Below, piece by piece: positions 4,284 to 26,662 of a stretch of 39,811 nt of DNA (positions are counted from its first letter, which is position 1; the number at the start of each line of letters is the position of its first letter). Source of the DNA: Telmatospirillum sp. (lineage in GTDB: Bacteria > Pseudomonadota > Alphaproteobacteria > Rhodospirillales > Magnetospirillaceae); NCBI GenBank assembly GCA_031291415.1, contig JARLJB010000216.1, positions 1 to 39,811 of the forward strand. Direction: 5' to 3'. The notes beneath the pieces are model-generated. The model saw nothing but the letters and a program-made list of their open reading frames with translations. It made no database searches and was not told where the DNA came from. Position numbers and translations under genes: made by a program.

Positions 4284-5539
4284 CCGGGCGTCCACGACTG
4301 CTCTTCGTTTCCCCGCAATTTTTGTTTCCGACCGATGCCGGAGGCAAGATCCGCACCACCAACATCTTGCGGGGAATGAAGGGCGGCGAGTTCGAAATCA
4401 CGCTGGTTTCGCCGGCAACGCAGGCCCAATTGACGACCTTCGCGGCGGAGCTGGCCGGCGTATGCGACCATTTTGTCTCCTGGCCGCTCCACCCGCGAGG
4501 CCGTCTGTTTTTTGTCCAGCGGTTGCTTTCTCTGGTCTCCGATCTTCCGGCTTCGGTGTCCGCCGACCGGTCGCGGGATGGAACGCGCGTGATCGAAGGA
4601 TTATTGGCGCAACAACCGGATGTCGTTGTCGTCGATTTCGTCCATGCCACTGTGTTGATGCCGCGAAAACTGGCCATGCCATCGATCGTGTTTACCCACA
4701 ATGTCGAGGCCGAAATATTTAAACGCCATGTCAATTACGCAAAAAACGGCGTGATGCGCAGAGTCTGGCAGGATCAGTATCGGAAGATGTTGGCATTCGA
4801 ACAGGCAAGCCTGCTCTCTTTCGATACGGTTATTGCCGTTTCGGAGAGGGATGACGCGTTTTTCCGCGACGAATATGGCGTGCGCGACGGGCGGGTGATT
4901 CCGACGGCGGTCGATCTCGACTTCTTCCATTATCGCGGTGACGATCCCCGGAATGCGGTGAAGCCGCAAGGGGGCCATATCGTGTTTACCGGGTCGATGG
5001 ATTGGCGAGCCAATATCGATGCCATAGAATATTTCATGGATGATATCTGGCCGCTGGTTTCATCTGTACGGCCGGACGCCCATGTGAGTGTGGTCGGACG
5101 CAATCCTCCCAAAGCACTCGTCGCTGCGGCGGCCCAACGCGGATTGCCCTGGAAATTTACCGGGTTTGTCGATGACGTGCGGCCTTACGTCTATGACGCC
5201 GATGCCTATGTCATTCCGTTAAGGGTCGGTGGTGGCACGCGTATCAAGGTCTACGAGGCCATGGCGATGGGGTGTCCCGTTCTGTCGACCGGGATCGGTG
5301 TCGAAGGGCTCCCTGTCGAAGATGGGCGTCACTATCTTCGTGCCGACGCCCCACAGGCTTTCGCCGATGGTCTGTTGCATCTTTTGGCCAATCCGCAGGA
5401 GGGAAGGCGGTTGGCCAAGGCGGCGCACGAGTTCGTCAGTAACCGCTTCGGCGCCCCGCAAGTGGCCAGAGTTTTTGAAGGTTATTGTCGGGAAACGCTC
5501 GACCGACGGACGTCGTCGGTGTCGTCCGTCGCCGGTTGA
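4280..5539 (+). CDS. glycosyltransferase family 4 (EPS assembly)
   Basis: A GT-B fold glycosyltransferase of 419 residues, probably adding one sugar to the lipid-linked EPS repeat on the inner face of the membrane. The N-terminal half opens LLFVSPQFLFPTDAGGKIR, the 'pyPPdkGgkiR' pattern of sugar transferases found in PEP-CTERM/EPS clusters. THNVEAEIF follows near residue 140. The C-terminal half has VFTGSMDWRANIDAI, FTGFVDDVRPYV and the nucleotide-sugar region PLRVGGGTRIKVYEAMAMG (about 315-333), where Glu of YEAMAMG is the conserved acidic residue. The start is GTG at 4280, overlapping the preceding TGA. Its 3' end overlaps the convergent glycosyltransferase by 58 bp. Donor and acceptor are unknown. 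Confidence 0.82.
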   Translation: MTGRPRLLFVSPQFLFPTDAGGKIRTTNILRGMKGGEFEITLVSPATQAQLTTFAAELAGVCDHFVSWPLHPRGRLFFVQRLLSLVSDLPASVSADRSRDGTRVIEGLLAQQPDVVVVDFVHATVLMPRKLAMPSIVFTHNVEAEIFKRHVNYAKNGVMRRVWQDQYRKMLAFEQASLLSFDTVIAVSERDDAFFRDEYGVRDGRVIPTAVDLDFFHYRGDDPRNAVKPQGGHIVFTGSMDWRANIDAIEYFMDDIWPLVSSVRPDAHVSVVGRNPPKALVAAAAQRGLPWKFTGFVDDVRPYVYDADAYVIPLRVGGGTRIKVYEAMAMGCPVLSTGIGVEGLPVEDGRHYLRADAPQAFADGLLHLLANPQEGRRLAKAAHEFVSNRFGAPQVARVFEGYCRETLDRRTSSVSSVAG

Positions 5540-6648
5540 CCTCGCTTACCATCGAAGAGTTTGCGATAGGCTGCAAACATCAAGGATTGCTCGAACACCT
5601 CCGCCGCCCTTAGCGCGTTGGCCCGGCCGGCGGCGCGGGCTTGGAGAGGATTGTCGAGCAATCCGAGGATTGCCTTGGCGAGGGACGGAGCATCTCGGCG
5701 AACGACATAAGCGCGGTTTTCGTCGGAAACCATGTTCCGTACGTCGCCGACGTCGGTCGCGGCGATCGGCAACCCGCAGGCCATCGCTTCCAGAATGGAA
5801 AGTGGCATTTGCTCGGTGTCCGACGACAGAGCGAACACGGAGAAAGACGGCAAAAGCCGCTCCGGTTCACCGCAACTTCCGGTGAATATTACCCGATCGC
5901 CGATACCCAATTCCGCAGCTCTGGCTTTTAGTTTCGGCATTTCCGCGCCATCGCCGACAATCGCCAGCCGAACAGGGCGAAGACGCGCGACCTCGGCAAC
6001 CGCGTCCAAAAGGCGCGACAGATTTTTCTCTGCCCGCAAGGCGGCCACCGTCCCGATGACCGGTTCGTCTCCGTCCATGATGCCTTTGGCGGCGGCGAAT
6101 TGTCGATCGGGGCCGCCACCGAAGCGGGCACAATCAACGCCGTTGGGAATGTGGTGAAGATGCCGTTCAGGCAGACGCCAGATATTTCGGGCAATTCCGT
6201 AGAGCGTCATGGACGGCAATATGATCGTCGAGCGGCGCAGGACGATCCGGCGTGTCCAAACCCGGCGGGGGAGTTGTCTGTTCGCTTCCTCGGGACCAAA
6301 ACCGTCTTCCATATGGACATGGCGGACCCGGCCGTCGAGATTGGCCATGGCCCATTCGATGGATCCCCAGTTGGACGTCACCAACAGATCCGGGTGCAGT
6401 TCGCGCAGAAGTGCCCGAAACGTTTTCAGATTTCCCAGTGTTTCTCCATGCCGGATGGGAACGTCGAGGACTCGGGCATCGATCTCCGGAGCAAGTCGCG
6501 CCATTGCCCCGGTTTCGCCGTCCATGGCAATGATCCGGTGACGGTAACGAGGACCGAAATGGTTCGCCAGTTGGGCAAAACGCATTTGCGGTCCGCCAAC
6601 TTTGAAGGTGGCATAAACGTGCAGAAGAAGCGGCGCCGGAGTAGTCAT
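5482..6648 (-). CDS. glycosyltransferase family 4
   Basis: A GT4-type retaining glycosyltransferase of 388 residues. It starts LLLHVYATFKVGGPQMRFAQ (the GG loop that contacts the acceptor). IPNGVDCARF sits at mid-length, VIGTVAALRAEKNLSRLLDA is the start of the second Rossmann domain, and VIFTGSCGEPERLLPSF follows. The EX7E nucleotide-sugar motif is intact in SSDTEQMPLSILEAMACG. The C-terminal tail of about 15 residues (DDTDDVRRSSVSRQ) lies inside the overlap with the convergent gene and may be a drifted extension. The start overlaps the stop of the upstream fused oxidoreductase (ATGA), so the two are coupled. It acts on the EPS lipid-linked intermediate by inference from context. Confidence 0.85.
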   Translation of the reverse strand: MTTPAPLLLHVYATFKVGGPQMRFAQLANHFGPRYRHRIIAMDGETGAMARLAPEIDARVLDVPIRHGETLGNLKTFRALLRELHPDLLVTSNWGSIEWAMANLDGRVRHVHMEDGFGPEEANRQLPRRVWTRRIVLRRSTIILPSMTLYGIARNIWRLPERHLHHIPNGVDCARFGGGPDRQFAAAKGIMDGDEPVIGTVAALRAEKNLSRLLDAVAEVARLRPVRLAIVGDGAEMPKLKARAAELGIGDRVIFTGSCGEPERLLPSFSVFALSSDTEQMPLSILEAMACGLPIAATDVGDVRNMVSDENRAYVVRRDAPSLAKAILGLLDNPLQARAAGRANALRAAEVFEQSLMFAAYRKLFDGKRGQPATDDTDDVRRSSVSRQ

Positions 6649-8847: not shown

Positions 8848-10113
8848 TCACCTGCGGGATTGGAATGCTGCACCGTCAATGGTCTCGATGGTTGGGAGAT
8901 GATCGTTTCGATCGGCAACAATTCGATTGAAGAGTGCCAACTGCCCTTCGGTGGTGGCATCCCAACTGAACTGTTCGGCGTAGCTGCGGGTCGTCGAGCG
9001 GTCGGGCAAGGCGGCGAACAGTGCCCGTACGCCGTTGGCGATTCCGTCCGCCGAACGATCTTCTACCAAAACGCCGGCTTCACCGTCGCCAACGACCTCT
9101 CGCGTGCCCCAGACATCGGAGGCGACGACGGGCGTGCCGCAAGCCATGGACTCCAACAACACATTGGCCCAGCCTTCGCGGCTCGATGCCAGCACCAAAG
9201 CGTCGGCAGCCGAGTAGATGTCGGGCAGCACCTCGTGAGGAATTTCGCCAAGGAAACGAACGCGGTCGCCGACGCCGGCCTTCATCGCGCGACTTTCCAG
9301 GTCCTGCCGGTCCGGGCCGCCACCGGCAATCAGCAGGGTAAAGTCGGGCAGTTGTCGCAGGGCGTCGATGATCAGATGGTGGCCTTTGCGTTCGATCAGA
9401 TGCCCGACAGACGCCAGAATCCGTCCCGACAGGCCCAGCCGCGCACGGACTTCTTCACGGTCACGCGGACAAAATGAGACCAGGTCGACGCCGTTACGCA
9501 GGACGCGAACCTTGTCCGGCGAAACGTCAAGGTCGAGGAGAGCATCGCGCAAGGCGTCACAGACGGTGACCAAGCCATCGGCCCGACCGGCAGCCCAGCG
9601 AATCTGAGCCTTCGGCAGGGCAAATTGCGGAATCAGGTTGATATCGGTGCCTCTGGCCGTGATGACCAGCGGCTTTCCGAGGTCACGGGCGATCAGGGCG
9701 GCGGCGACGCCATCGGGATAGAAATAGTGCGCATCGATGAGGTCGAAATCGGCATCGGCCTGTAATTTCCGTACGAGTCCGCGGGTCCAGAAATACATCA
9801 AAAGAGGCCCCAAGGTCATGCCGACCTTGGGGATAACCGGAAAACGGGGGTGCCAGACTTTGATGCCGTGGCGTTCCTCGAAAGAGGGCGCGCCAGCAAA
9901 TCGTGCCCAAGCGCCGAACCGTGGATTGGCTGAGGGAAACCATGGAACCGGTGCGACCACACGTGCCGCCACTTGGCCGCTGGCGACCAGGTGGCGGAGA
10001 CGATTCTCGACGAACACGCCGTTAAGCGGCTGCGCGGCGTTAGGAAAGAGGCTCGAAAAGGTCAAAACCCGCAAAGGGCGCTCCAAGGTGGAACTGATCG
10101 CAGCAAGCCCCAT
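8848..10113 (-). CDS. glycosyltransferase family 4 (TuaC-like)
   Basis: A GT4 glycosyltransferase of 421 residues. The N-terminal domain contains FSSLFPNAAQPLNGVFVENR, the opening usual in TuaC-like EPS glycosyltransferases, then IDAHYFYPDGVAAAL and TARGTDINLI. The C-terminal domain has LRNGVDLVSFCP, ILASVGHLIERKGHHLIIDA, VRFLGEIPHEVLPDIYSAAD and an intact EX7E motif in SSREGWANVLLESMACGTPV. It is the last gene of the sugar transferase-prsK-prsR-prsT run, beginning two bases after the prsT stop, so it should be co-transcribed. Its placement behind prsT suggests it belongs to the PEP-CTERM-linked EPS rather than to lipopolysaccharide. The donor sugar is unknown. Confidence 0.83.
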   Translation of the reverse strand: MGLAAISSTLERPLRVLTFSSLFPNAAQPLNGVFVENRLRHLVASGQVAARVVAPVPWFPSANPRFGAWARFAGAPSFEERHGIKVWHPRFPVIPKVGMTLGPLLMYFWTRGLVRKLQADADFDLIDAHYFYPDGVAAALIARDLGKPLVITARGTDINLIPQFALPKAQIRWAAGRADGLVTVCDALRDALLDLDVSPDKVRVLRNGVDLVSFCPRDREEVRARLGLSGRILASVGHLIERKGHHLIIDALRQLPDFTLLIAGGGPDRQDLESRAMKAGVGDRVRFLGEIPHEVLPDIYSAADALVLASSREGWANVLLESMACGTPVVASDVWGTREVVGDGEAGVLVEDRSADGIANGVRALFAALPDRSTTRSYAEQFSWDATTEGQLALFNRIVADRNDHLPTIETIDGAAFQSRR

Positions 10114-10115
10114 GA

Positions 10116-12905
10116 TCAGCTTCCGCCCAGTTCCGTATAGAGCTTGTGTGCATCGTCATCGCCGTCGAAGGTCGTTTTGGCGTCGACCAGTCCTTTGAGG
10201 ATGCTGCGGGCTTCCGTCGGATTCTTGGCGTCAACCAAAACCCTGGCCATGTGATAGGCCACCTGCGGATCGCGGGAATTGGCCTGGTAGGCGCGGCGAA
10301 TCAGGTCTCCTCCCTGCCGCTGATCCCCCCCTTGATAGAGGATGAAGCCGTAGGTGTCCATGATGGCCGGCGCATTGGGTGCCATGGAATAGGCGCGTTT
10401 GGCGACGTCTTTGGCCCGCGGGTCCTTCTGGTGGCCGTAGGTCCAGGCGAGATTGTTGAGAACGGCGGCGTTGCGCGGAAGAGCCTTCAGCACCGTTTCG
10501 TAATGCGCCGCTGCGTCAACATAGTTACCGCGCGCCAATTGGTGATCGGCCAGGACAAGCCTGGACTCGGCATCGTTCGGATTTTTCTGCAGCCATTGGC
10601 CGAGGAAAGCGTCAGCACCGTCATTGTCGCCCTTTTGAACGAGGACCCTGAAGACGCGATTGGCCGCTACGGTGGTCGGTTTCTGTTCGAAGGACTTGCG
10701 GAAATAGGCTTCCGCCTCCGGCAGTTTTCCGACCGAGAGAAGAAGGTCGCCCGGCAAGGCGACCGCGCCCGGATCGTCGGGGTTCTTGAGTTTGGCTTTC
10801 TCGGCGATGGTCATCGCGGCGTCCAGGCCATTCAATTTCTGCTCGAGGATTACGCGGTTGAACCAGGCCGACATATATTTTTGATCGGCCGAAATCGCAC
10901 GGTCAAAGGCGACTTTTGCCTGATCGGTCTTTCCTGCCGCTGTCAGGATTTGTCCATACCGTTCGTGAATCGGCGCCGAATCCGGGAAATTCCCCTGCAG
11001 TTTTTGGTAAAGAGCGATGGCGTCGTCGATTTTTCCCACGGAAAAAAGGGTCCGCGCCGCGATGTCGACGGCTGTCGGGTCATCGGGGCGGCTGCGGGCG
11101 AGATCGCTGGCGGCAAGAGCCGCCTTGTCCTGATTCTTTTGGTTCAATTGGACTTGGATCAAGCGAACTCGTGGGTCCATCTCATTCGGATGGGCTCTGA
11201 TCGCGTCCTCGAGAAATGGGATGGCCGCCGCCGGTTGGTTGGCCCGTTCTTCTATCTGTTCGCGGGCAAGAAGCGCCCGCAGGTCGGCGGGATCGTGTTT
11301 TAAGATGGCGTCGAGCATGGCGCGGGCGTGATCGAAATTGCCGGCTTGCATGTCCAGTTCGGCAAGATAGACGGCTGCCGGAACATAGTTGGCATTCTTG
11401 GCGAGGGCGCTTTCGAAGTCGGCGCGCGCTCCTTGCTCGTCGCCCTTGGCCAACCGTGCCGATCCGCGGATCGTCATCGGCAATGAGGGGTCTGGCTGAG
11501 ACCCGATCATGTCCGTTGCGGTTGCGATCGCCCGATCGTAGTCGCCATTGCCGATATAGGTCGCGACCAGCGCCAAATCGATCTGCAGGTTCTTCGGATC
11601 GCTTTTGACCAGCGCTTCCAGTTCGCGAATACCGTCATCCCGGGTGGAATTGTCACGGGTATGGCTGATCGCCAGGCGGGCCCGAGCCATGGGATCGGTC
11701 GGATGCGCCTTGACGGCGGCGTTCAGCAGATCGTTCGCCTCGGTAACCTGACCTTCGGCCAAATATGCCGATCCTAAAAGATCAAGCGCTTCGGCGTCAT
11801 CGCTCAACCGGTCGCGCATGGGGGCCAGGATGGTAATGACCTTGCTGAAGGCGCGAAGACGGAAGTTGATGTTTGCCAGCAATTTCGCGCCGATGACGCT
11901 GTCGGGTTCGGCGGCATGGAATCGCGTTGCGTAATCGAGCGCTTCTTCCAGATTGTTGCTGCCGGAATGGATGAGCGCCAAAAGAAAGGTCCCTTGCGGA
12001 ATTTTCGCGATGGTGGCTTCCACGGGCCGGACCGTGTCCAGCGCCTCGGCGGTTTTCTGGGCGCGCACCAGCAGCATCGCCTTCAGGTAGAGCGCCATGA
12101 CCGACTTTGGGGCCAGCTCAAGCGCCTGATCGACTTGTGTCCGGGCTTCGGCATCCTGACCCTGGGCCATCAATGCCATGGCCAGGCTCTGATGGAGGCG
12201 GGGATCCCTGGGACTGACTTCGAGGGCGGCGCGGTAGCTTTTGATGGCTCCGTCCTGGTCACCGGCTTGGCGGCGGAGATCGCCCTTGAGGACCAGGGCT
12301 TCGGCGACTTTTGGATTGATGCCCAATATCCGGTCGACGATCTGTTCGGCGCCGGCACCATCGTTGCGTCTCGCCAGAACCAGGGCGCGGGTAACTTGCG
12401 TGGTGGCGCTATTCGGATTGGCGTCGAGCGCTGCCTGCGATTCTTTGTCCGCATTGTCAATGTCGCGCAAAGCGATATAGGCCCTGGCGCGGAGCGCCAA
12501 GACGTCTCCCTTGCAGACCTGATCGTCGGGGCAGGGCGGGATGGCGTTCAAGAGTTGCTGAAATTTGCCCTCGGCCAAGTAGGTACTGGCCAGCAAGGGG
12601 CTGGTTTTCGCAACGGGATAGCCATTTTCCCGCGCCTGGGAGATATCCTTTTCGGCGGCGACAAAATCACCGGTCCGGAACTCCAGGCGTCCCAGCTCGT
12701 AGCGGGCGTCGGGATTGGCGGGGTTTGACCTGACGGCCTTCTTCAACTGAATCAGCGCTGTTCGAAAATCGCCTTTTTCCAGCAAGGCGCGGCCTTCCGC
12801 AAGAAAACGGACATCTTCCGGGTCCTGGACGGCAAAGGCCGGCGACGCGGCCGCCGTTCCCAAAGCAACCAACGCGGCAGCCAGGTAGGGGCGATAGGAT
12901 CTCAT
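10116..12905 (-). CDS. prsT: PEP-CTERM system TPR-repeat protein PrsT
   Basis: A large exported repeat protein of 929 residues. After the signal peptide (residues 1-25, cut after PAFA) it consists almost wholly of tetratricopeptide repeats. Recurrent blocks such as GDFRTALIQLKKAVRSNPANP, DADARTQ-type helices and KDPRAKDVAKRAYSMAP repeat about every 34 residues, to roughly 25 helical pairs. Length, order (prsK-prsR-prsT) and PEP-CTERM context identify PrsT, an accessory protein of exosortase/EPS systems presumed to be a periplasmic scaffold. Family members are often described as lipoproteins. Here I see an AxA-type signal peptidase I site and no Cys near the cleavage point. The start overlaps the prsR stop (ATGA), so it is co-translated with prsR. 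Confidence 0.9.
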   Translation of the reverse strand: MRSYRPYLAAALVALGTAAASPAFAVQDPEDVRFLAEGRALLEKGDFRTALIQLKKAVRSNPANPDARYELGRLEFRTGDFVAAEKDISQARENGYPVAKTSPLLASTYLAEGKFQQLLNAIPPCPDDQVCKGDVLALRARAYIALRDIDNADKESQAALDANPNSATTQVTRALVLARRNDGAGAEQIVDRILGINPKVAEALVLKGDLRRQAGDQDGAIKSYRAALEVSPRDPRLHQSLAMALMAQGQDAEARTQVDQALELAPKSVMALYLKAMLLVRAQKTAEALDTVRPVEATIAKIPQGTFLLALIHSGSNNLEEALDYATRFHAAEPDSVIGAKLLANINFRLRAFSKVITILAPMRDRLSDDAEALDLLGSAYLAEGQVTEANDLLNAAVKAHPTDPMARARLAISHTRDNSTRDDGIRELEALVKSDPKNLQIDLALVATYIGNGDYDRAIATATDMIGSQPDPSLPMTIRGSARLAKGDEQGARADFESALAKNANYVPAAVYLAELDMQAGNFDHARAMLDAILKHDPADLRALLAREQIEERANQPAAAIPFLEDAIRAHPNEMDPRVRLIQVQLNQKNQDKAALAASDLARSRPDDPTAVDIAARTLFSVGKIDDAIALYQKLQGNFPDSAPIHERYGQILTAAGKTDQAKVAFDRAISADQKYMSAWFNRVILEQKLNGLDAAMTIAEKAKLKNPDDPGAVALPGDLLLSVGKLPEAEAYFRKSFEQKPTTVAANRVFRVLVQKGDNDGADAFLGQWLQKNPNDAESRLVLADHQLARGNYVDAAAHYETVLKALPRNAAVLNNLAWTYGHQKDPRAKDVAKRAYSMAPNAPAIMDTYGFILYQGGDQRQGGDLIRRAYQANSRDPQVAYHMARVLVDAKNPTEARSILKGLVDAKTTFDGDDDAHKLYTELGGS

Positions 12906-14296
12906 GACCGGTCCTTTCTTTTGATGTTCACGTTGGCAGTACGCATGAGTTCATAAAGCGTCGGGCGGGAGACGCCCAAAAGCTGCGCGGCATCCGACAC
13001 ATTGTTGTCGGTAAGCGCCAGGGCGCGGGTGACCGCTTCGCTTTCCGCCTGCAGACGAATCTGTCGTAAGGTTGGCATGGGGGCCGCTTCTGCCGGATTG
13101 TCCATGCCGAGATCGAGGTCGGCGGCGGTAATGCTTTTGCCATCGGCCATCAACATCGACCTCTTCACCCGGTTTTCCAGTTCTCGGACATTGCCTGGCC
13201 AAGGATAGGTTCCGATGGCGGCAAGGGCGTCGACCGTAAAGGCTTTGGGAGCCCGTTGGAAGTCCTTGGTATATTTTCCAAGGAAATACTTCGCCAGTAG
13301 AACCGCGTCGCCGGGGCGTTCCCGAAGGGGGGGGATGTGGATTGCGACTTCGTTAAGGCGATAGAACAGGTCCTCGCGGAACCCGCCTTCCTTCATCATT
13401 ACCTTGAGATCACAGTTGGTGGCCGACAAGACGCGGACATCCACCTCGATTTCCTTACGCCCGCCAATTCGTTCAATCGTCCGATTTTGCAGGAAGCGCA
13501 GCAGCTTGGCCTGCAGCGGCAAGGGCATGTCACCGATTTCGTCGAGGAACAATGTTCCGAGATGGGCCTGTTCAACTTTGCCGATGGTCTGTTTGACAGC
13601 CCCGGTGAAGGCGCCTTTTTCGTGACCGAACAGCTCGCTCTCCAACAGATTGTCGGGGATGGCTGCGCAGTTGATGGCGACGAAACTGCGGCCGGCGCGC
13701 GGGCTCAGATCGTGGATTGTCCGCGCCAGCACTTCCTTGCCGGTGCCGCTTTCGCCGGTGATCAGGAGGGCGATGTTGGCCGATGCGACCCGTTCGGCAG
13801 TGCGGCAGACCTGCAGCATCTGCGGAGAGGACGCCACCAAGCCGGCCAACGGAGAGACTTCGCTTTTGGCCAGCCGTTCGTTCTCCTCTTCGAGATCGTG
13901 CAGGTGGATCGCCCGGTTGACGATCATGCGAAGAACGTCCGGATCGACCGGCTTCGGGTAAAAATCATAAGCGCCAAGACCGACGGCCTGCAGGGCATTG
14001 GCCCGTTCCTCATTGCCGCTGGCGACGACGACCTTGGCCAGGCGATCCTGGCGGAGAAGACCTTCGAGAGTGGCCAACCCTTCAGAGGCGCCATTCGGGT
14101 CGGGAGGCAGGCCGAGATCGAGGATGACGACCGGGGGTCTTTCCTTGTCAAACAGGGTCAGAGCGGCCTGGCGTTCTTCGGCGACAAATACCTCGAACTC
14201 GCCCAGCGCCCATTTCATTTGCGTGCGTAGGCCGAGATCGTCTTCGACGATGAGAAGCTTTCGTTTTTCGTCGGGCATCTTTTTCTCGTCGGTCAT
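12902..14296 (-). CDS. prsR: PEP-CTERM system sigma-54-dependent response regulator PrsR
   Basis: An NtrC-class transcription activator of 464 residues. Receiver domain 10-125: acidic pair D19-D20, phosphoacceptor D60 in VILDLGLP, Lys in KPVDPD. AAA+ domain about 145-375: Walker A GESGTGKE 181-188, GAFTGA loop 228-233 that contacts sigma-54, Walker B LFLDE 249-253, and sensor region RPGDAVLLAKYFL. A Fis-type helix-turn-helix lies at about 425-460 (NNVSDAAQLLGVSRPTLYELM). It should be phosphorylated by PrsK, whose gene overlaps it by ATGA, and open RpoN promoters upstream of PEP-CTERM genes. A perfect -24/-12 site in front of the PEP-CTERM gene at 26030-26662 is the obvious target. RpoN itself is not encoded here. 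Confidence 0.93.
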   Translation of the reverse strand: MTDEKKMPDEKRKLLIVEDDLGLRTQMKWALGEFEVFVAEERQAALTLFDKERPPVVILDLGLPPDPNGASEGLATLEGLLRQDRLAKVVVASGNEERANALQAVGLGAYDFYPKPVDPDVLRMIVNRAIHLHDLEEENERLAKSEVSPLAGLVASSPQMLQVCRTAERVASANIALLITGESGTGKEVLARTIHDLSPRAGRSFVAINCAAIPDNLLESELFGHEKGAFTGAVKQTIGKVEQAHLGTLFLDEIGDMPLPLQAKLLRFLQNRTIERIGGRKEIEVDVRVLSATNCDLKVMMKEGGFREDLFYRLNEVAIHIPPLRERPGDAVLLAKYFLGKYTKDFQRAPKAFTVDALAAIGTYPWPGNVRELENRVKRSMLMADGKSITAADLDLGMDNPAEAAPMPTLRQIRLQAESEAVTRALALTDNNVSDAAQLLGVSRPTLYELMRTANVNIKRKDRS

Positions 14297-16410
14297 CCTT
14301 CACCTGACTCTCGCGTAACGTCTTTGGGGGAGGCCAAGGAGGGGGCCGTGCCCGGGGATATCACGATTCGCATGGTCGTGCCTTGTTGCGGTGCCGTGTC
14401 CACTTCCAATTGCGCTCCCATTTCCCGCACCAGATGTCGGGTCTGATAGGCTCCGATTCCATAGCCGGTGGATTTCGTCGATGCCAGGGGCCGGAACAAT
14501 TCCGTATTGACGAAGGACTCTTCCATGCCGGGGCCGTTATCAGAAACTTCTATGATGATTTTCTCTCCGTCAACGCGCAACCGTAACACGACAGTGCCAG
14601 TCGGGCCGCTTGCCGAAAGGGCGTTGTCGATCAACAGATCGAGTACGGAGATCAGCGTCGCCTCGACGGCGGTTACCACCACGGGAGACGAGGGTAATTC
14701 GCATAAGAGATTGGGCGCGGTCTTGTTCCACCGGGCGCCGATTTTTCCCAGCACACCCGTCAATTCGATGGGCTGCGGCTTCGGCGGCTGGCGCCGCTGG
14801 GCCGCCAATTGCTCCAGCATCGCCCGCATCCGATTGACCGAGTTGCCGACGGTCTCCAGCATATCCTTTTGAAAGTCGGGGTTGTCCCCATATTTCTTCG
14901 CGTTTTCCAGCATCAAGGACATTTGACCGACGACGTTCTTGATGTCATGCACGACAAAGGCGAATTGTCGGTTGAAATCCTCGAGCCGACGTGCAGCGCG
15001 CAGCTCCTCGGTCGTCAATTCCTCGGCCAGGTAGCTGGCGGCTTGAATGGCCGCCGTGCTGAGAAGATCGCGGTCTTCCCAATCGAGGCGATGGCGGGCC
15101 CTGGCCTGGTCCAGAACGAGGAATCCCAGAATGTCACTGCGGTGGATAAGCGGGACAACCAGCCAAACGGTTGGCCGATCGGTGATCCATTCCGGAAGAG
15201 CAAGATCACCATATCGGTCGGGACTTTGGCGATATTCGTCGACGTCGATGATGCGGCAGGTTCTCCGGAAAAATTCGATCAAGGAAGAATCCGCCCGGAC
15301 CGGCGGATGTGGGGTGGCGAGATTCCACACGGCGTTGACAAAAAAACAATTGTCCTGTTCCTGGAGAACCCACAATGCCCCGGCGGGACTATTCATCATA
15401 TCTGTCAAAGCTCTGGCCAAGCGAAATTCCAGAGCAGACGGTTGTTGCGCTGACATTATTTGGATAAAACGCAACCACTCTTCTCTGTAGTCGTATCGAT
15501 ATGTAAAAAAATTCTTTAATATAAGGACCTTGATGTGTGATTTTATCTGAGAAGAGGTGAGGCTCACCAGCATAATCAAGAGAGCCGCCACCATGAGCGT
15601 AATTTGGAACGAAAATCCCCAGCGTCCACCAATATCATGAACGTAATAGGCCAGTGCCGCCATGATCAGCAGGTAGGATCCGCTGGCGATAAGCACGACG
15701 GTGTAAAGAGCTGGTTTGGGAGAGGCGTTGATTTTTACCTCAGCCCGGAAATTCCAGTTCTTAAGACGATAGAACGAACTCATCAACAAAGGGGCGACAA
15801 GGACGGCGATCAGGCCGTGCGCGACGGAAAACGCATCATCGATGCCTCCCTCGACCAGGGCATCGGAATGAACGAAGAAACCAAAAGTGAAAAGAGTTCC
15901 AAGGCCCAGGCAGAGATGCTTGATTTCCCAGCGACCAGACGAGCCGCTTGTCCGTAGGACATTCTCGATGAGAAGCAGGCCGATGACCGGCAGGACGATG
16001 TTGACGAGAGACAGCAGGACGAGAAGCGAGTGGGCTGCTGAACGTCCATTGTAGAAGTAAGGCAGGGCGACGATCAAAAGGACGATCAGAATCGGCGCGC
16101 CGGCGCGACTGATCAGGATTCGCCTGGGAGCTGCGCTCTGGCGGTCGTCCAGTCGGCCCCACAAGGTCAGCAGAAAACCGATCCAACTGCCGTTCCGCAG
16201 CATTTCCGCAACGTCCAGCAGGACGGGGGGGGCGGTGTCCGCGATGTCCGCAATCGCCGCGAGGATAGCCCAAATGGCAGACAAAAGGCAGGCGGCGACA
16301 AAATATCGCCGTTTCATCGCCTTGACTTTGGCGAGCGCGGCGACGGTCGAAAAGATCAGGTAAACGGCGGCGCAGACCGCGAAGACCACCGTTCCAACGA
16401 TATCGTTCAA
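14293..16410 (-). CDS. prsK: PEP-CTERM system sensor histidine kinase PrsK
   Basis: A membrane sensor kinase of 705 residues. The first 285 residues hold about eight to ten hydrophobic segments (for example 5-28, 38-57, 103-120, 128-150, 165-181, 238-257, 266-286), forming the unusual polytopic input domain of PrsK. A GAF-like domain spans about 325-465 (SPAGALWVLQEQDNCFFV to LLSTAAIQAASYLAEEL). The kinase core follows: H-box FAFVVHDIKNVVGQMS with His488, an N-box with DNALSASGPTG, and the G1 box DNGPGMEE. The signal is unknown, possibly envelope or polysaccharide state. It is 30 nt downstream of the sugar transferase gene and overlaps prsR by ATGA, giving a sugar transferase-prsK-prsR-prsT-GT4 operon. 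Confidence 0.93.
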   Translation of the reverse strand: MNDIVGTVVFAVCAAVYLIFSTVAALAKVKAMKRRYFVAACLLSAIWAILAAIADIADTAPPVLLDVAEMLRNGSWIGFLLTLWGRLDDRQSAAPRRILISRAGAPILIVLLIVALPYFYNGRSAAHSLLVLLSLVNIVLPVIGLLLIENVLRTSGSSGRWEIKHLCLGLGTLFTFGFFVHSDALVEGGIDDAFSVAHGLIAVLVAPLLMSSFYRLKNWNFRAEVKINASPKPALYTVVLIASGSYLLIMAALAYYVHDIGGRWGFSFQITLMVAALLIMLVSLTSSQIKSHIKVLILKNFFTYRYDYREEWLRFIQIMSAQQPSALEFRLARALTDMMNSPAGALWVLQEQDNCFFVNAVWNLATPHPPVRADSSLIEFFRRTCRIIDVDEYRQSPDRYGDLALPEWITDRPTVWLVVPLIHRSDILGFLVLDQARARHRLDWEDRDLLSTAAIQAASYLAEELTTEELRAARRLEDFNRQFAFVVHDIKNVVGQMSLMLENAKKYGDNPDFQKDMLETVGNSVNRMRAMLEQLAAQRRQPPKPQPIELTGVLGKIGARWNKTAPNLLCELPSSPVVVTAVEATLISVLDLLIDNALSASGPTGTVVLRLRVDGEKIIIEVSDNGPGMEESFVNTELFRPLASTKSTGYGIGAYQTRHLVREMGAQLEVDTAPQQGTTMRIVISPGTAPSLASPKDVTRESGEG

Positions 16411-16440: not shown

Positions 16441-17889
16441 TCACCGTGCGCCTTGATTCCAAAGTAGAACCTTAACAGTTTGCATGATAATTATAATATC
16501 TAAAAACAAGCTGCAGTTCTTTATATAGTAAAGATCATAGGTTAATTTCATCTTGGCGTCATATTCTGTGGCGCCATAGGGGTAGTTGATTTGAGCCCAT
16601 CCAGTAATGCCGGGCTTTGCGACATGTCGTTCATTGTAGTAGGGGATTTTTTCCGCAAGAGCGGTGACGAAGACCGGGCGTTCCGGGCGTGGCCCAACGA
16701 AGGCCATGTCACCCTTCAGCACATTGATAACCTGCGGAATCTCGTCAATTCTGACCTTGCGGATGAAGGCGCCGACCTTGGTGACGCGGGCATCGTTTTT
16801 GGCTGCCCAGCGCGGTCCATCCTTCTCGGCGTCGTCGCACATGCTGCGGAACTTGAGAACCATGAAGGGCTTCCCCTTCATGCCGACGCGTTCCTGCCGG
16901 TAAAAAAGCGGCCCCCGGCTTTCGAGCTTGATCAGGATGGCCGTCGGGATGGTAAGCGGCAGTGTGAGGATGAGGACGATGGAACTGATGGTGATGTCAA
17001 ATGTACGTTTCAAGAAACTGCGGATGGTTCCGATACTGAAGCCGTCGGAAAACAGCAGCCAACTGGGGCTGATTTCCTCAAGATCCACCTGTCCACTTTC
17101 GCGTTCCCAGAACGACGCATATTCGGTGACCTGAATGCCTCGCAACTTGCAGGCCAGAAGATCATAGACGGGCAGGCCCCGGCGCTCCGCACTGGCGACG
17201 ACAAGCTCTTCGACGCGCTTTTCCGCGCAGAATTTCGGCAAATTCTGTGGAACAATCCAATAGTCAGTTCGCCGATCGACGCTCCGGCGGCAATGATCGG
17301 CGGACTGCGCCTGATCTAGCGGTCCGACTGGCTCCGGACGGGTCCCGAAGCGGACATATCCGACAATGTTGATGGCGCGATTGCTGAGTTCGTGGTTCAG
17401 CTTTTCGATTTTTGCGGCCCGCTTTCCGGAACCCAGGATCAGTACGCGACGTTTGAGAGTGTCGGTTCGGTCGATAAGCCGGATAAAGGCGGCGCGCCAA
17501 GCCAAAAGGACCGGGAAAAAAACGGTCAGGGTGGCGATGCAGAGGGCATACTGTCCGGTCTGGAGGTGCTCCGCGATAATGCGATCACGAACGAAGAGTA
17601 CGAAACCTATGCTGAGAAGAACAATGGGAAGGATGACCAGCGATCGGGAAAAGACATCCTGGTAATGGACGAAATGATGCCGGTTGTAGAGGCCAACGCA
17701 AGCCATGCCGGAAACGGTTACCAAGGCGACGACAATCGAGAGTATTATTCCGGAACTAAGGTCAATGGTTATGCCAATTGTTTGGAATATATTAAATATA
17801 ACAACAGATTGTACAAGTAAATATATCGTCTCGCTCAAAAAGAGAATCACTGTGGAGACGTCGATATAATGTTTAAACAGACGAAACAT
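16441..17889 (-). CDS. polyprenyl-phosphate sugar-1-phosphate transferase (PEP-CTERM/EpsB type)
   Basis: This enzyme starts EPS assembly by moving a sugar-1-phosphate onto undecaprenyl phosphate. It has 482 residues, with hydrophobic segments near 15-35, 45-66, 83-100 and 115-132 and a Rossmann-like domain (VLILGSGKRAAKI at 149-161). A C-terminal bacterial sugar-transferase domain runs from KRTFDITISS at 294: YRQERVGMKGKPFMVLKFRS, RKVRIDEIPQVINVLKGDM, the VGPRPERPVF signature, and KPGITGWAQINYPYGAT. Layout and neighbours match the PEP-CTERM/XrtA-associated sugar transferase. The stretch between 183 and 212 is lower in similarity, probably a loop. It opens the prs operon and has its own candidate sigma-70 promoter about 175 nt upstream. 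The first sugar (glucose, galactose or other) cannot be told. Confidence 0.88.
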   Translation of the reverse strand: MFRLFKHYIDVSTVILFLSETIYLLVQSVVIFNIFQTIGITIDLSSGIILSIVVALVTVSGMACVGLYNRHHFVHYQDVFSRSLVILPIVLLSIGFVLFVRDRIIAEHLQTGQYALCIATLTVFFPVLLAWRAAFIRLIDRTDTLKRRVLILGSGKRAAKIEKLNHELSNRAINIVGYVRFGTRPEPVGPLDQAQSADHCRRSVDRRTDYWIVPQNLPKFCAEKRVEELVVASAERRGLPVYDLLACKLRGIQVTEYASFWERESGQVDLEEISPSWLLFSDGFSIGTIRSFLKRTFDITISSIVLILTLPLTIPTAILIKLESRGPLFYRQERVGMKGKPFMVLKFRSMCDDAEKDGPRWAAKNDARVTKVGAFIRKVRIDEIPQVINVLKGDMAFVGPRPERPVFVTALAEKIPYYNERHVAKPGITGWAQINYPYGATEYDAKMKLTYDLYYIKNCSLFLDIIIIMQTVKVLLWNQGAR

Positions 17890-23620: not shown

Positions 23621-23662
23621 CATCCTTCGAGACGCGCCGTTCCGGCGCTCCTCAGGATGAGG
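23621..23662 (+). repeat. REP-like palindromic repeat, left copy
   Basis: A 42-bp element that starts CATCCTTCGAGACG and ends CTCCTCAGGATGAGG around a palindromic centre. Except in the 13-base centre it is the same as the element at 24003-24044 in opposite orientation. The pattern belongs to a dispersed palindromic repeat widespread in alphaproteobacteria (established knowledge). Confidence 0.8.
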
Positions 23663-23701
23663 TGCTGTTTTCCCCCTTTGGACGGTAACCACGAGAACGC
23701 C

Positions 23702-24013
23702 ATGTCTGCGTTTCTTTACATTCTTCAATGCGCCGACCAATCCTATTATGTTGGTACGACGCGGGGTTCCCTTGAGAAAAGAGTGGCCGAACATCAGTCG
23801 GCAACCTTCGGAGGGTACACGGCGACGCGACGGCCGGTGATCTTGGTCTTTCAGCAGTCTTTTGATCGTATTGAAGACGCAATCGCCGCTGAACGGCAAG
23901 TGAAGGGATGGCGTCGTGAAAAAAAGGAAGCTTTGATCCGTGGCGATACGGCGGCATTGCCGGCTTTGGCCAAACGCGGCCGCATCGCGGCCGTCTCGAA
24001 GTCCTCATCCTGA
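23702..24013 (+). CDS. GIY-YIG nuclease-domain protein, REP-flanked
   Basis: A stand-alone GIY-YIG domain protein of 103 residues (YhbQ/UPF0213-like), on the strand opposite to the exporter genes around it. The catalytic pattern is present: YIL at 6-8, YYVG at 15-18, Arg27 and Glu64 in AAERQVKGW. After about residue 90 the sequence is no longer domain: RGRIAAVSKSSS is encoded by repeat DNA, and the stop lies inside the right REP copy at 24003-24044. ATG 23702 is 39 nt past the left REP. The biological role of these small proteins is unsettled; DNA end or structure processing is suspected. The setting (one gene between inverted REPs, splitting a conserved export operon) suggests a small insertion unit. 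It is unlikely to take part in peptide export. Confidence 0.85.
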   Translation: MSAFLYILQCADQSYYVGTTRGSLEKRVAEHQSATFGGYTATRRPVILVFQQSFDRIEDAIAAERQVKGWRREKKEALIRGDTAALPALAKRGRIAAVSKSSS

Positions 24014-24040
24014 GGAGGCCGCATCGCGGCCGTCTCGAAG
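23978..24040 (+). repeat. 24-bp direct duplication within the right REP cluster
   Basis: The 24-base block beginning GGCCGCATCGCGGCC and ending GTCTCGAAG occurs at 23978-24001 and again at 24017-24040, a 39-base period. The first copy codes for the C-terminus of the GIY-YIG protein; the second is part of the complete REP copy. This indicates local duplication of the repeat into the gene end. Confidence 0.8.
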
Positions 24041-24044
24041 GATG
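24003..24044 (-). repeat. REP-like palindromic repeat, right copy
   Basis: The inverted counterpart of 23621-23662. Read on the minus strand it starts CATCCTTCGAGACG and ends CTCCTCAGGATGAGG, with centre GCCGCGATGCGGC. It covers the GIY-YIG stop codon and ends 15 bp before the adaptor gene's stop, so it may also act as a transcription barrier or mRNA 3'-end stabiliser. Confidence 0.8.
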
Positions 24045-25361: not shown

Positions 25362-25615
25362 CTGTCGATGGATCCATCCATGAGTGGAGTGACCTACCGG
25401 ACGATATCGTTACAGAGGATAGCCGCCTGGGTCGGGTCCGCAAAAGAAAGACAGCCGGGAGATTCGACGAGCCAGATGGTCACTTCTGGCAAATTCGTGA
25501 AGGTGATATTAGTACTTCATATTACGATATTTTTTCGGAGTCATTACCTGGAATTTCAGCCACAGCCGTTACGGGAGGTACCTGTCGAAAAAAACTATCA
25601 TCCCTACCATAACAA

Positions 25616-25648
25616 AATACCGCCCCAGCTGAAAGCCGGAGCGGTATT
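25616..25648 (-). terminator. intrinsic terminator/attenuator after the double-glycine peptide gene
   Basis: On the minus strand AATACCGC and GCGGTATT form a perfect 8-bp stem that extends inward by two more pairs after one mismatch, followed directly by TTTTGTTAT. It begins 23 nt after the peptide stop and 255 nt before the adaptor start. It would give abundant peptide message and reduced read-through into the exporter genes, a common arrangement in bacteriocin operons. Confidence 0.7.
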
Positions 25649-25670: not shown

Positions 25671-25820
25671 TCATTTTTTCGGAATGGCTGGGCCAATTAC
25701 GATCTTCGTAGGAGCACCAGCACCGCCGCCAACGACATTCTTTAACTCATCGTCTTTGAGGTCGGAGGCCTTGGTTTTCTCGGCATCTTGACCTTTTTTG
25801 TCCTGAATTTTGTCGCTCAT
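25671..25820 (-). CDS. double-glycine leader peptide, presumed exporter substrate
   Basis: A 49-residue peptide gene. Sequence features: an N-terminus rich in Lys, Asp and Gln (residues 1-19), then DLKDDELKNVVGG (20-32), which fits the double-glycine leader consensus (hydrophobics at Leu21, Leu26, Val29/Val30 and Gly-Gly before the cut). The remaining core is 17 residues, or 18 if cut one Gly earlier: GAGAPTKIVIGPAIPKK. The core has three Lys, no acidic residue, no Cys or Ser, one Thr and two Ile-Gly-Pro/Ile-Pro turns, so thioether or azole modification is unlikely. ATG 25818-25820 follows GGAG at proper spacing. The neighbouring C39 exporter has all catalytic residues, which makes this its likely cargo. 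No maturation enzyme or immunity gene is seen. Function (bacteriocin, signal or matrix peptide) is unknown; I do not recognise the family. Confidence 0.8.
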   Translation of the reverse strand: MSDKIQDKKGQDAEKTKASDLKDDELKNVVGGGAGAPTKIVIGPAIPKK

Positions 25821-25908
25821 GATTATCTCCAGTGCCTAGACGTTGAAACGGAAAAGCGTAAAAGCTCTTCTTTTCTAAGAAACATGCGGAGTGGCTCACA
25901 TTCCACAT

Positions 25909-26029: not shown

Positions 26030-26662
26030 TCAGCTTCTTCTGTTCCTGCGAACCACACCAATCCCTAAAAAGGACATTCCCAACAATGCGAGGGCGGTGG
26101 GGGTCGGAACCTCTTGGAACGTCAAATCCGTAATTCCCGTTTCATGCACCGTAGCGTTGCTTCCAGTCTGATAGGTAAATTCGGAATATCCGAACTTTGT
26201 CGTCAATCCATCAGAGGTCGCAAAATCGTAAATTGTGCTTCCTACTTGAAACGCAATTCCAGCATTGTCCGCAGACACATTACCGTTGGAATCTACATAA
26301 AACAGATTGTCCCAGCTGATAGCAGTGCCGGCTAACACATTGTACTCATATACCGTTATGCCTGATACTATAGCGCTGGCATTATAGGTTGCCAACGACG
26401 TCACGGGAGTGCCTGTACTCGCCGTCTGTGTTCCGGAAATGCTGTCGACACGATAGGTGGTGACTTTTGTGACGCTGTCGGTTCCAATTGCTGTGGCATT
26501 TAGGTAGCCAGCAAAAGCCGAAGCGACACCAGATTTTCCCGACTGAGCAGTATAATCGAACTCGAACGTCACCGAACCGGCTTGTGCCGGAGCCGAGAGA
26601 CCCAGGGCCAACACGCCCGCAGCGATCGCCCCGGATAGCTTGAGTGAATTGATAAAAGCCAT
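26030..26662 (-). CDS. PEP-CTERM surface protein (VPTP variant)
   Basis: An exported 210-residue protein. A signal peptide (1-28, cleavage after APAQA) precedes a beta-rich, Ser/Thr/Gly/Asn-rich body with no Cys. The C-terminus is a PEP-CTERM tripartite signal: VPTP at about 185-188, a hydrophobic helix (ALALLGMSFLGIGVV) and a basic tail RRNRRS. Such proteins are cut and anchored or released by exosortase and function in the EPS matrix or flocs. The motif has Thr where Glu is usual (VPEP). The start is ATG 26660-26662 behind AAGGA; upstream in-frame codons overlap the promoter and are not used. A perfect sigma-54 promoter and the prsKR genes in the same window indicate PrsR control. Body function is unknown. 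No exosortase is in the window. Confidence 0.85.
   Translation of the reverse strand: MAFINSLKLSGAIAAGVLALGLSAPAQAGSVTFEFDYTAQSGKSGVASAFAGYLNATAIGTDSVTKVTTYRVDSISGTQTASTGTPVTSLATYNASAIVSGITVYEYNVLAGTAISWDNLFYVDSNGNVSADNAGIAFQVGSTIYDFATSDGLTTKFGYSEFTYQTGSNATVHETGITDLTFQEVPTPTALALLGMSFLGIGVVRRNRRS

Follow-up and report, generated by a model that had tools for sequence, protein, structure and literature searches.

Peptide gene and NHLM exporter

The window, meaning the whole 39,811-nucleotide stretch of Telmatospirillum sp. DNA that was analysed, carries on its minus strand a small gene (25671..25820, read 25820-25671) that encodes a 49-residue precursor. The translated ORF consists of the leader MSDKIQDKKGQDAEKTKASDLKDDELKNVVGG (codons 25820-25725), the core GAGAPTKIVIGPAIPKK (25724-25674) and a stop codon (25673-25671), while the plus strand of the same interval, 25671-25820, is broken by a stop codon. 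A ribosome site, GGAG (25827..25830, minus strand, read 25830-25827), lies 6 nt 5' of the ATG. Double-glycine leaders of the class II type have GG at the cut site and hydrophobic residues at positions -4, -7 and -12. The window precursor has hydrophobic residues at all three positions relative to its GG, and such leaders are found in all six precursors of the family described below. Cleavage is predicted after Gly32 (VVGG), leaving a 17-residue core with a net charge of +3, one Thr and neither Cys nor Ser. No NCBIfam or Pfam family was matched above its cut-off, the only matches being sub-cut-off ones to bacteriocin leaders. The NHLP (TIGR03793) and Nif11 (TIGR03798) leader profiles gave no match to the peptide in an NCBIfam search up to E 10, in which the HMMER filters discard most weak matches. 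The bare leader pattern, with one occurrence in the window against a mean of 0.2 per simulated window (8 of 40 simulated windows have one), is not beyond chance, so conservation must decide whether the gene is real.

A complete NHLM exporter follows immediately downstream of the peptide gene on the same strand, and each of its subunits exceeds its curated NCBIfam cut-off. These are an HlyD-type adaptor (25361-24060; TIGR03794, 345 bits, cut-off 156), ABC1, with C39 peptidase, permease and ATPase (23548-21245; TIGR03796, 1029, cut-off 853; PF03412), and ABC2, with permease and ATPase (21241-18311; TIGR03797, 831, cut-off 709). The catalytic Cys36, His109 and Asp125 of the ABC1 C39 domain are present at the positions given in a preliminary description of this DNA, whose account of the precursor, its good ribosome site, its cationic core lacking Cys and Ser, and its exporter neighbours is borne out in the same way, with two small corrections: the strand, which it leaves unnamed, is minus, and the core contains a Thr. 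A solved-structure search matched general ABC proteins, including PCAT1 and ComA. The preliminary description had seen no maturase, and a scan of part of the window's ORFs likewise recognised none. The NHLP leader (TIGR03793) is absent from all five genomes that carry the gene block described below. The 511-nt gap between the HlyD and ABC1 genes contains a plus-strand GIY-YIG ORF (23657-24013; PF01541) bordered by perfect 14-15 nt inverted repeats (region 23621-24044). This region looks like a small mobile insertion, and the two exporter genes abut or overlap in four related genomes (G052, G053, G047 and G022).

The preliminary description took cargo with a short leader to be unusual for an NHLM exporter, a view that related loci do not support. 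Seven sister exporters have double-glycine precursors with Pro-rich cores, and short double-glycine leaders occur in seven of the eight Lachnospiraceae NHLM loci examined. Judging from these sequences, short double-glycine cargo of NHLM exporters is not rare. The NHLM exporter has already been described as more widespread than NHLP and as a possible lead to further peptide families (available text of PMC2887384). A scan of genome contigs yielded 39 loci with distant exporters, of which 29 were read. In the sister loci (L092, L094, L095, L096, L097, L156 and L209), the precursors are encoded divergently and have long Pro-rich, often repeated cores, with leaders like E[IL]S..DLD.VVGG. Double-glycine peptides with KGFEPVTM repeats and true NHLP-leader peptides were found in L099 (4337-4549) and L100 (8586-8792 and 11128-11436), adjoined by a protein that we take to be YcaO-like. 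The double-glycine precursor of locus L107 (11316-11531, genome G041) has a core of seven residues, KAGGKAG, and its gene immediately precedes a divergent NHLM HlyD.

Conservation of the peptide and its exporter

Among 55 genomes of the same family, TIGR03796 was detected at 25 places in 19 genomes (E <= 1e-150). In G052, G053, G047 and G022, ABC1 is 69-72% identical to that of the window, and a homologous small gene precedes HlyD in each; the lack of such a gene beside this exporter in relatives, by which the preliminary description would have been refuted, is not what these genomes show. The resulting block is common to five genomes of three genera, the window included, in the order PEP-CTERM-like gene, double-glycine peptide, hairpin, HlyD, ABC1, ABC2, EpsB2, PrsK, PrsR, PrsT. 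The predicted core is identical (KLGAPIYKKKP) in G047 and G022, which belong to two genera, and reads NLGAPIFKKKP in G053. Two cores are longer and looser, that of the window, which is only loosely LGAPI-like, and that of G052 (GPAGSTPTSGPGRHLGPDIPSD), which is net negative and poorly conserved. With the sixth homologue, found in G366, core length ranges from 11 to 22 residues, and the net charge is positive in five of the six.

Searching the 55 family genomes with the 49 residues gave matches at E <= 1 in 19 of them, mostly judged to be chance. The four true homologues (E 6e-11, 7e-4, 0.014 and 0.117) were accepted because the exporter adjoins each of them. Weak matches in G035, G042 and G023 were rejected, as no double-glycine peptide was found there by the leader pattern. 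Profile A1 was positive in 9 of 317 genomes of the order at E <= 0.01, with four weak leader matches and five strong ones, the latter by construction since the profile was built from those five; no other strong match was obtained among the 317. In a sample of the class, A1 retrieved the window's own genome only (1 of 385, E <= 0.001).

G366, which belongs to another order, was reached through the exporter and provides an independent test made without a peptide query. The window HlyD matched 28 of the 317 order genomes (E <= 1e-60) and, at E <= 1e-80, three of 372 genomes sampled from the class, namely its own genome, G245 and G366. The G366 exporter is 61% identical in ABC1 and 54% in HlyD. 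About 7 kb away, the opposite strand encodes a type-2 PEP-CTERM-like protein (44.5%), followed by a precursor with leader ending VAGG and core IGGLGAPIPVKR, in which the LGAPI motif is recovered. The EpsB2/PrsK/PrsR/PrsT cluster genes are present in G366 and arranged differently. G245 was rejected as a further member, its exporter genes being broken up and no double-glycine peptide being found. A search of 357 relatives with the G366 HlyD gave two matches at E <= 1e-90; the second, G726, has a Pro-rich double-glycine precursor. Among plasmid records, HlyD matched 13, all under 60% identity, and the type-2 PEP-CTERM-like protein none.

A tree built from 38 ABC1 proteins groups the six exporters in a single clade (100/99; 100% of 200 bootstrap trees), within which window plus G052 and G053 plus G047 plus G022 form subgroups in step with core type. 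Over the loci examined, the core pattern matched only the six family members from which it was derived. The element, core and GG-leader patterns were devised from sequences already seen, and other forms may escape them; the absence of cargo at several exporter contigs is weak evidence because those contigs are short.

That the ORF arose by chance and has no product is a reading that the frequency of the bare leader pattern in simulated windows would allow. That the gene is real is established by homologous small genes preceding this exporter in four further genomes and by a sixth family member in another order, and the six share the same regulatory and genomic setting. GGAG stands 5' of the start codon in all six, and over the 27 codons compared between G047 and G022, differences fall mostly at third positions (3, 2 and 14 at positions 1, 2 and 3). 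We therefore give a chance ORF hardly any weight. On the sequence evidence, the most likely product of the gene is a short exported peptide.

Exopolysaccharide cluster, putative partner protein and control element

Downstream of the exporter, all on the minus strand, lie genes for an EpsB2-type XrtA/PEP-CTERM system glycosyltransferase (16441..17889; TIGR03013), the PrsK histidine kinase (14293..16410; TIGR02916), the PrsR sigma-54 response regulator (12902..14296; TIGR02915) and the TPR protein PrsT (10116..12905; TIGR02917), each over its cut-off, and then two glycosyltransferases conserved in the cluster (8848..10113 and 5482..6648). The order is the same in all five family genomes with the block. 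PrsK has seven hydrophobic stretches within its N-terminal 281 residues. It is encoded in 13 of the 55 family genomes, and five of these 13 have the clade exporter together with the peptide (profile, E <= 0.01), whereas the 42 PrsK-negative genomes have neither. In the other eight PrsK genomes, no such exporter or peptide was found near PrsK/PrsR over stretches of 12-20 kb. Exosortase (TIGR02602) was detected in four of the five block genomes and was not found in G053. The position of the peptide within a PEP-CTERM unit under predicted PrsK, PrsR and sigma-54 control was missed by the preliminary description and is the main point of the present analysis.

Upstream of the peptide is a gene for a secreted protein (26030..26662, minus strand, start taken at MAFINSLK in an ORF open from 26758) with the tail VPTPTALALLG. 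Several PEP-CTERM family models match this tail, all below cut-off (TIGR02595, 9.1 bits, cut-off 16; PF07589, 13 bits, cut-off 20.7), so we call the protein PEP-CTERM-like. In the window protein and its homologues in L085, L086, L087, L090 and L205, the tails read VP[AT]P, not PEP. The type-2 PEP-CTERM-like protein occurs in 3 of the 55 family genomes (E <= 1e-15), the same three that have the [KN]LGAPI[YF]KKKP core, and the window and G052 share the other type (41% identical). PEP-CTERM type and core type appear to have split together once, in a single evolutionary event and not in several.

Before proteobacterial PEP-CTERM genes, most of which are described as single-gene operons, a two-part element has been reported, comprising a motif ending TTTACA and a sigma-54 motif, with a spacer averaging 62.8 nt and a mean distance of 71 nt from the end of the sigma-54 motif to the start codon (available text of PMC1569441). 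The window has CTTACA (26803-26798, minus strand), which resembles the TTTACA terminus of PrsR motif 1 as published, and a sigma-54 -24/-12 box, TGGCACGATGATTGCT (26744-26729, minus strand), which ends 66 nt before the assumed start of the PEP-CTERM-like gene. Such an element precedes all six PEP-CTERM-like genes, with 52-53 nt from the TTTACA-like end to TGGC. A pattern for it, written after the six upstream regions had been seen, matched seven times in 193,099 bases, both strands included, against 0.05 expected (20 simulations), and the seventh match precedes another PEP-CTERM-like ORF of G022. Sigma-54 boxes scoring at least 11 of 12 numbered four in 221,490 bases (both strands counted), three of them at these positions. 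With the element before six of six genes and PrsK, PrsR and PrsT present, the unit has the features of a PrsK/PrsR/sigma-54 PEP-CTERM regulon.

Directly before the peptide gene, the only sigma-54 box was a weak 9-of-12 site in G052, and a sigma-70 and terminator scan gave nothing useful. Between the peptide and HlyD, a strong hairpin (25615..25648, minus strand), which the terminator scan did not list, occupies a place where all five block loci, the window among them, have a hairpin (z -4.5 in the window, -4.7 in G052, -4.4 in G047, -1.8 in G053 and -4.6 in G022). The gap between the PEP-CTERM-like gene and the peptide contains no strong hairpin in G047, G053 and G022 and moderate ones in the window. 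In G052 and G366, it contains strong hairpins without a T run, which makes joint transcription uncertain there.

Possible roles of the peptide

We estimate the probability that the peptide is cargo of the adjacent NHLM exporter, within the PEP-CTERM regulon, at roughly 0.8. The exporter has likely been recruited into the PEP-CTERM/exosortase exopolysaccharide regulon. Taking the conserved gene, exporter, cluster and control element that the DNA carries, we infer that PrsK and PrsR, with sigma-54 RNA polymerase, would switch on the PEP-CTERM-like protein and the precursor as one unit. The C39 domain of ABC1 would then cut the precursor after VVGG, and ABC1, ABC2 and HlyD, with a putative outer-membrane channel, would release a short peptide, usually cationic and probably unmodified, of 17 residues in the window and 11 in its commonest form. 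Outside the cell, it may act with its PEP-CTERM-like partner within the exopolysaccharide layer, where it would serve a floc or biofilm programme as a small matrix or linking component. We favour a role in the matrix over other roles, at slightly less than even odds, because of the tie to the PEP-CTERM-like protein, the mostly cationic cores within an exopolysaccharide cluster and the core shared across genera; the full sequence of regulon control, cleavage, export and matrix action likewise falls a little short of an even chance.

Published parallels also speak for this scheme. In Synechococcus, biofilm formation is served by small proteins with a GG motif together with a C39 transporter (available text of PMC4997328). 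In the text available to us, the PEP-CTERM protein PepA is RpoN-dependent, prevents the release of exopolysaccharide and keeps it in flocs, and PEP-CTERM proteins matter for the flocs of activated-sludge bacteria (PMC9850573). PepA restores flocs, not biofilm, in an rpoN1 mutant, and its overexpression does not rescue biofilm (PMC9850573). We count this biofilm result against the scheme as a whole, together with the negative core of G052, the loose core of the window, the distance between peptide and exporter in G366, the hairpins of G052 and G366, the single split of core and partner types, and the exosortase result in G053.

The main rival to a matrix role is a signal for PrsK. Sensed by PrsK or another receptor, an exported core would act in feedback on the PrsR/sigma-54 regulon, and cells would build matrix when crowded. 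The size of the cores, the presence of kinase and regulator in the same cluster and the occurrence of PrsR's own element before the peptide unit are all consistent with this, as are the differences between cores among species of the window's genus. The double-glycine peptides CSP and BIP signal via two-component systems of the same locus (available text of PMC7595303), and the original description of the system calls the PrsK stimulus obscure (PMC1569441, as far as its text was available). Yet the peptide is missing from 8 of the 13 PrsK-positive family genomes, which excludes a general PrsK signal, and a core shared unchanged by two genera does not resemble a species-specific pheromone. In most pairs, the N-terminal region of PrsK is the most variable, with or without the peptide alike, and no co-variation signal was detected in PrsK. 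We thus regard an autoinducer as possible but doubtful, and its most specific form, in which a PrsR/sigma-54-driven, NHLM-exported mini-peptide of the LGAPI family is the missing stimulus of PrsK, as improbable.

Release of an antimicrobial of the class II microcin or bacteriocin type into the biofilm would suit the double-glycine leader, the mostly cationic cores and a C39 exporter whose family takes its name from bacteriocin export. The core is nevertheless very short and tied to a PEP-CTERM unit, no immunity gene was recognised in the conserved neighbourhood, and the family matches are confined to sub-cut-off bacteriocin leaders, all of which make this role quite unlikely. We give a similarly low standing to a RiPP, its core modified by an enzyme whose gene lies elsewhere: true NHLP-leader peptides with a presumably YcaO-like neighbour do occur at other NHLM loci of the family, but the LGAPI cores lack Cys, Ser and Thr, and the proteins scanned in the window included no recognisable maturase. 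The earlier suggestion of an undescribed, unmodified peptide family stands as regards the lack of a Pfam or NCBIfam family and of a recognisable maturase in the scanned proteins, and of the roles then proposed, signal and matrix component remain the more probable.

Comparison with known systems

The locus resembles the NHLM/NHLP export system in all three exporter subunits, which score above the TIGR03794, TIGR03796 and TIGR03797 cut-offs. It differs from systems with NHLP or Nif11 precursors in that the cargo has a short double-glycine leader and no NHLP leader, no maturase was recognised and the setting is a PrsK/PrsR exopolysaccharide cluster. With the PEP-CTERM/exosortase (XrtA) system, as set out in the available text of PMC1569441, it has in common the kinase, regulator, TPR protein, glycosyltransferases and two-part element, and an exosortase in the four block genomes mentioned above; here, however, the PEP-CTERM-like gene is followed by one for an exportable peptide, and the cluster includes an exporter. 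EbfG1-4 and PteB of Synechococcus elongatus, likened here by description and not by sequence comparison, are small secreted double-glycine-motif proteins and a C39-peptidase transporter that serve biofilm formation (available text of PMC4997328). Pneumococcal pheromones of the CSP type likewise combine a short core, a double-glycine leader, a C39 exporter and a two-component system at the same locus (available text of PMC7595303), whereas the present system is Gram-negative, with a sigma-54 regulator, an NHLM exporter and a putative receptor role for PrsK.

As far as the open-licence literature shows, both this family of peptides and its setting within the PrsK/PrsR/PEP-CTERM regulon are new. 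PMC2887384 and PMC3023750 are the open-licence papers that came up for NHLP and PEP-CTERM together, and the joining of an NHLM peptide exporter with a PEP-CTERM/exosortase exopolysaccharide regulon is absent from the papers found. Synthesis of a defined peptide of 11-17 residues is feasible, which would permit a direct assay of it as a signal or as a part of the matrix. If the autoinducer reading were true, the LGAPI peptide would couple cell density to the building of a PEP-CTERM and exopolysaccharide matrix. In either role, the PEP-CTERM exopolysaccharide system would gain its first candidate peptide partner or signal.
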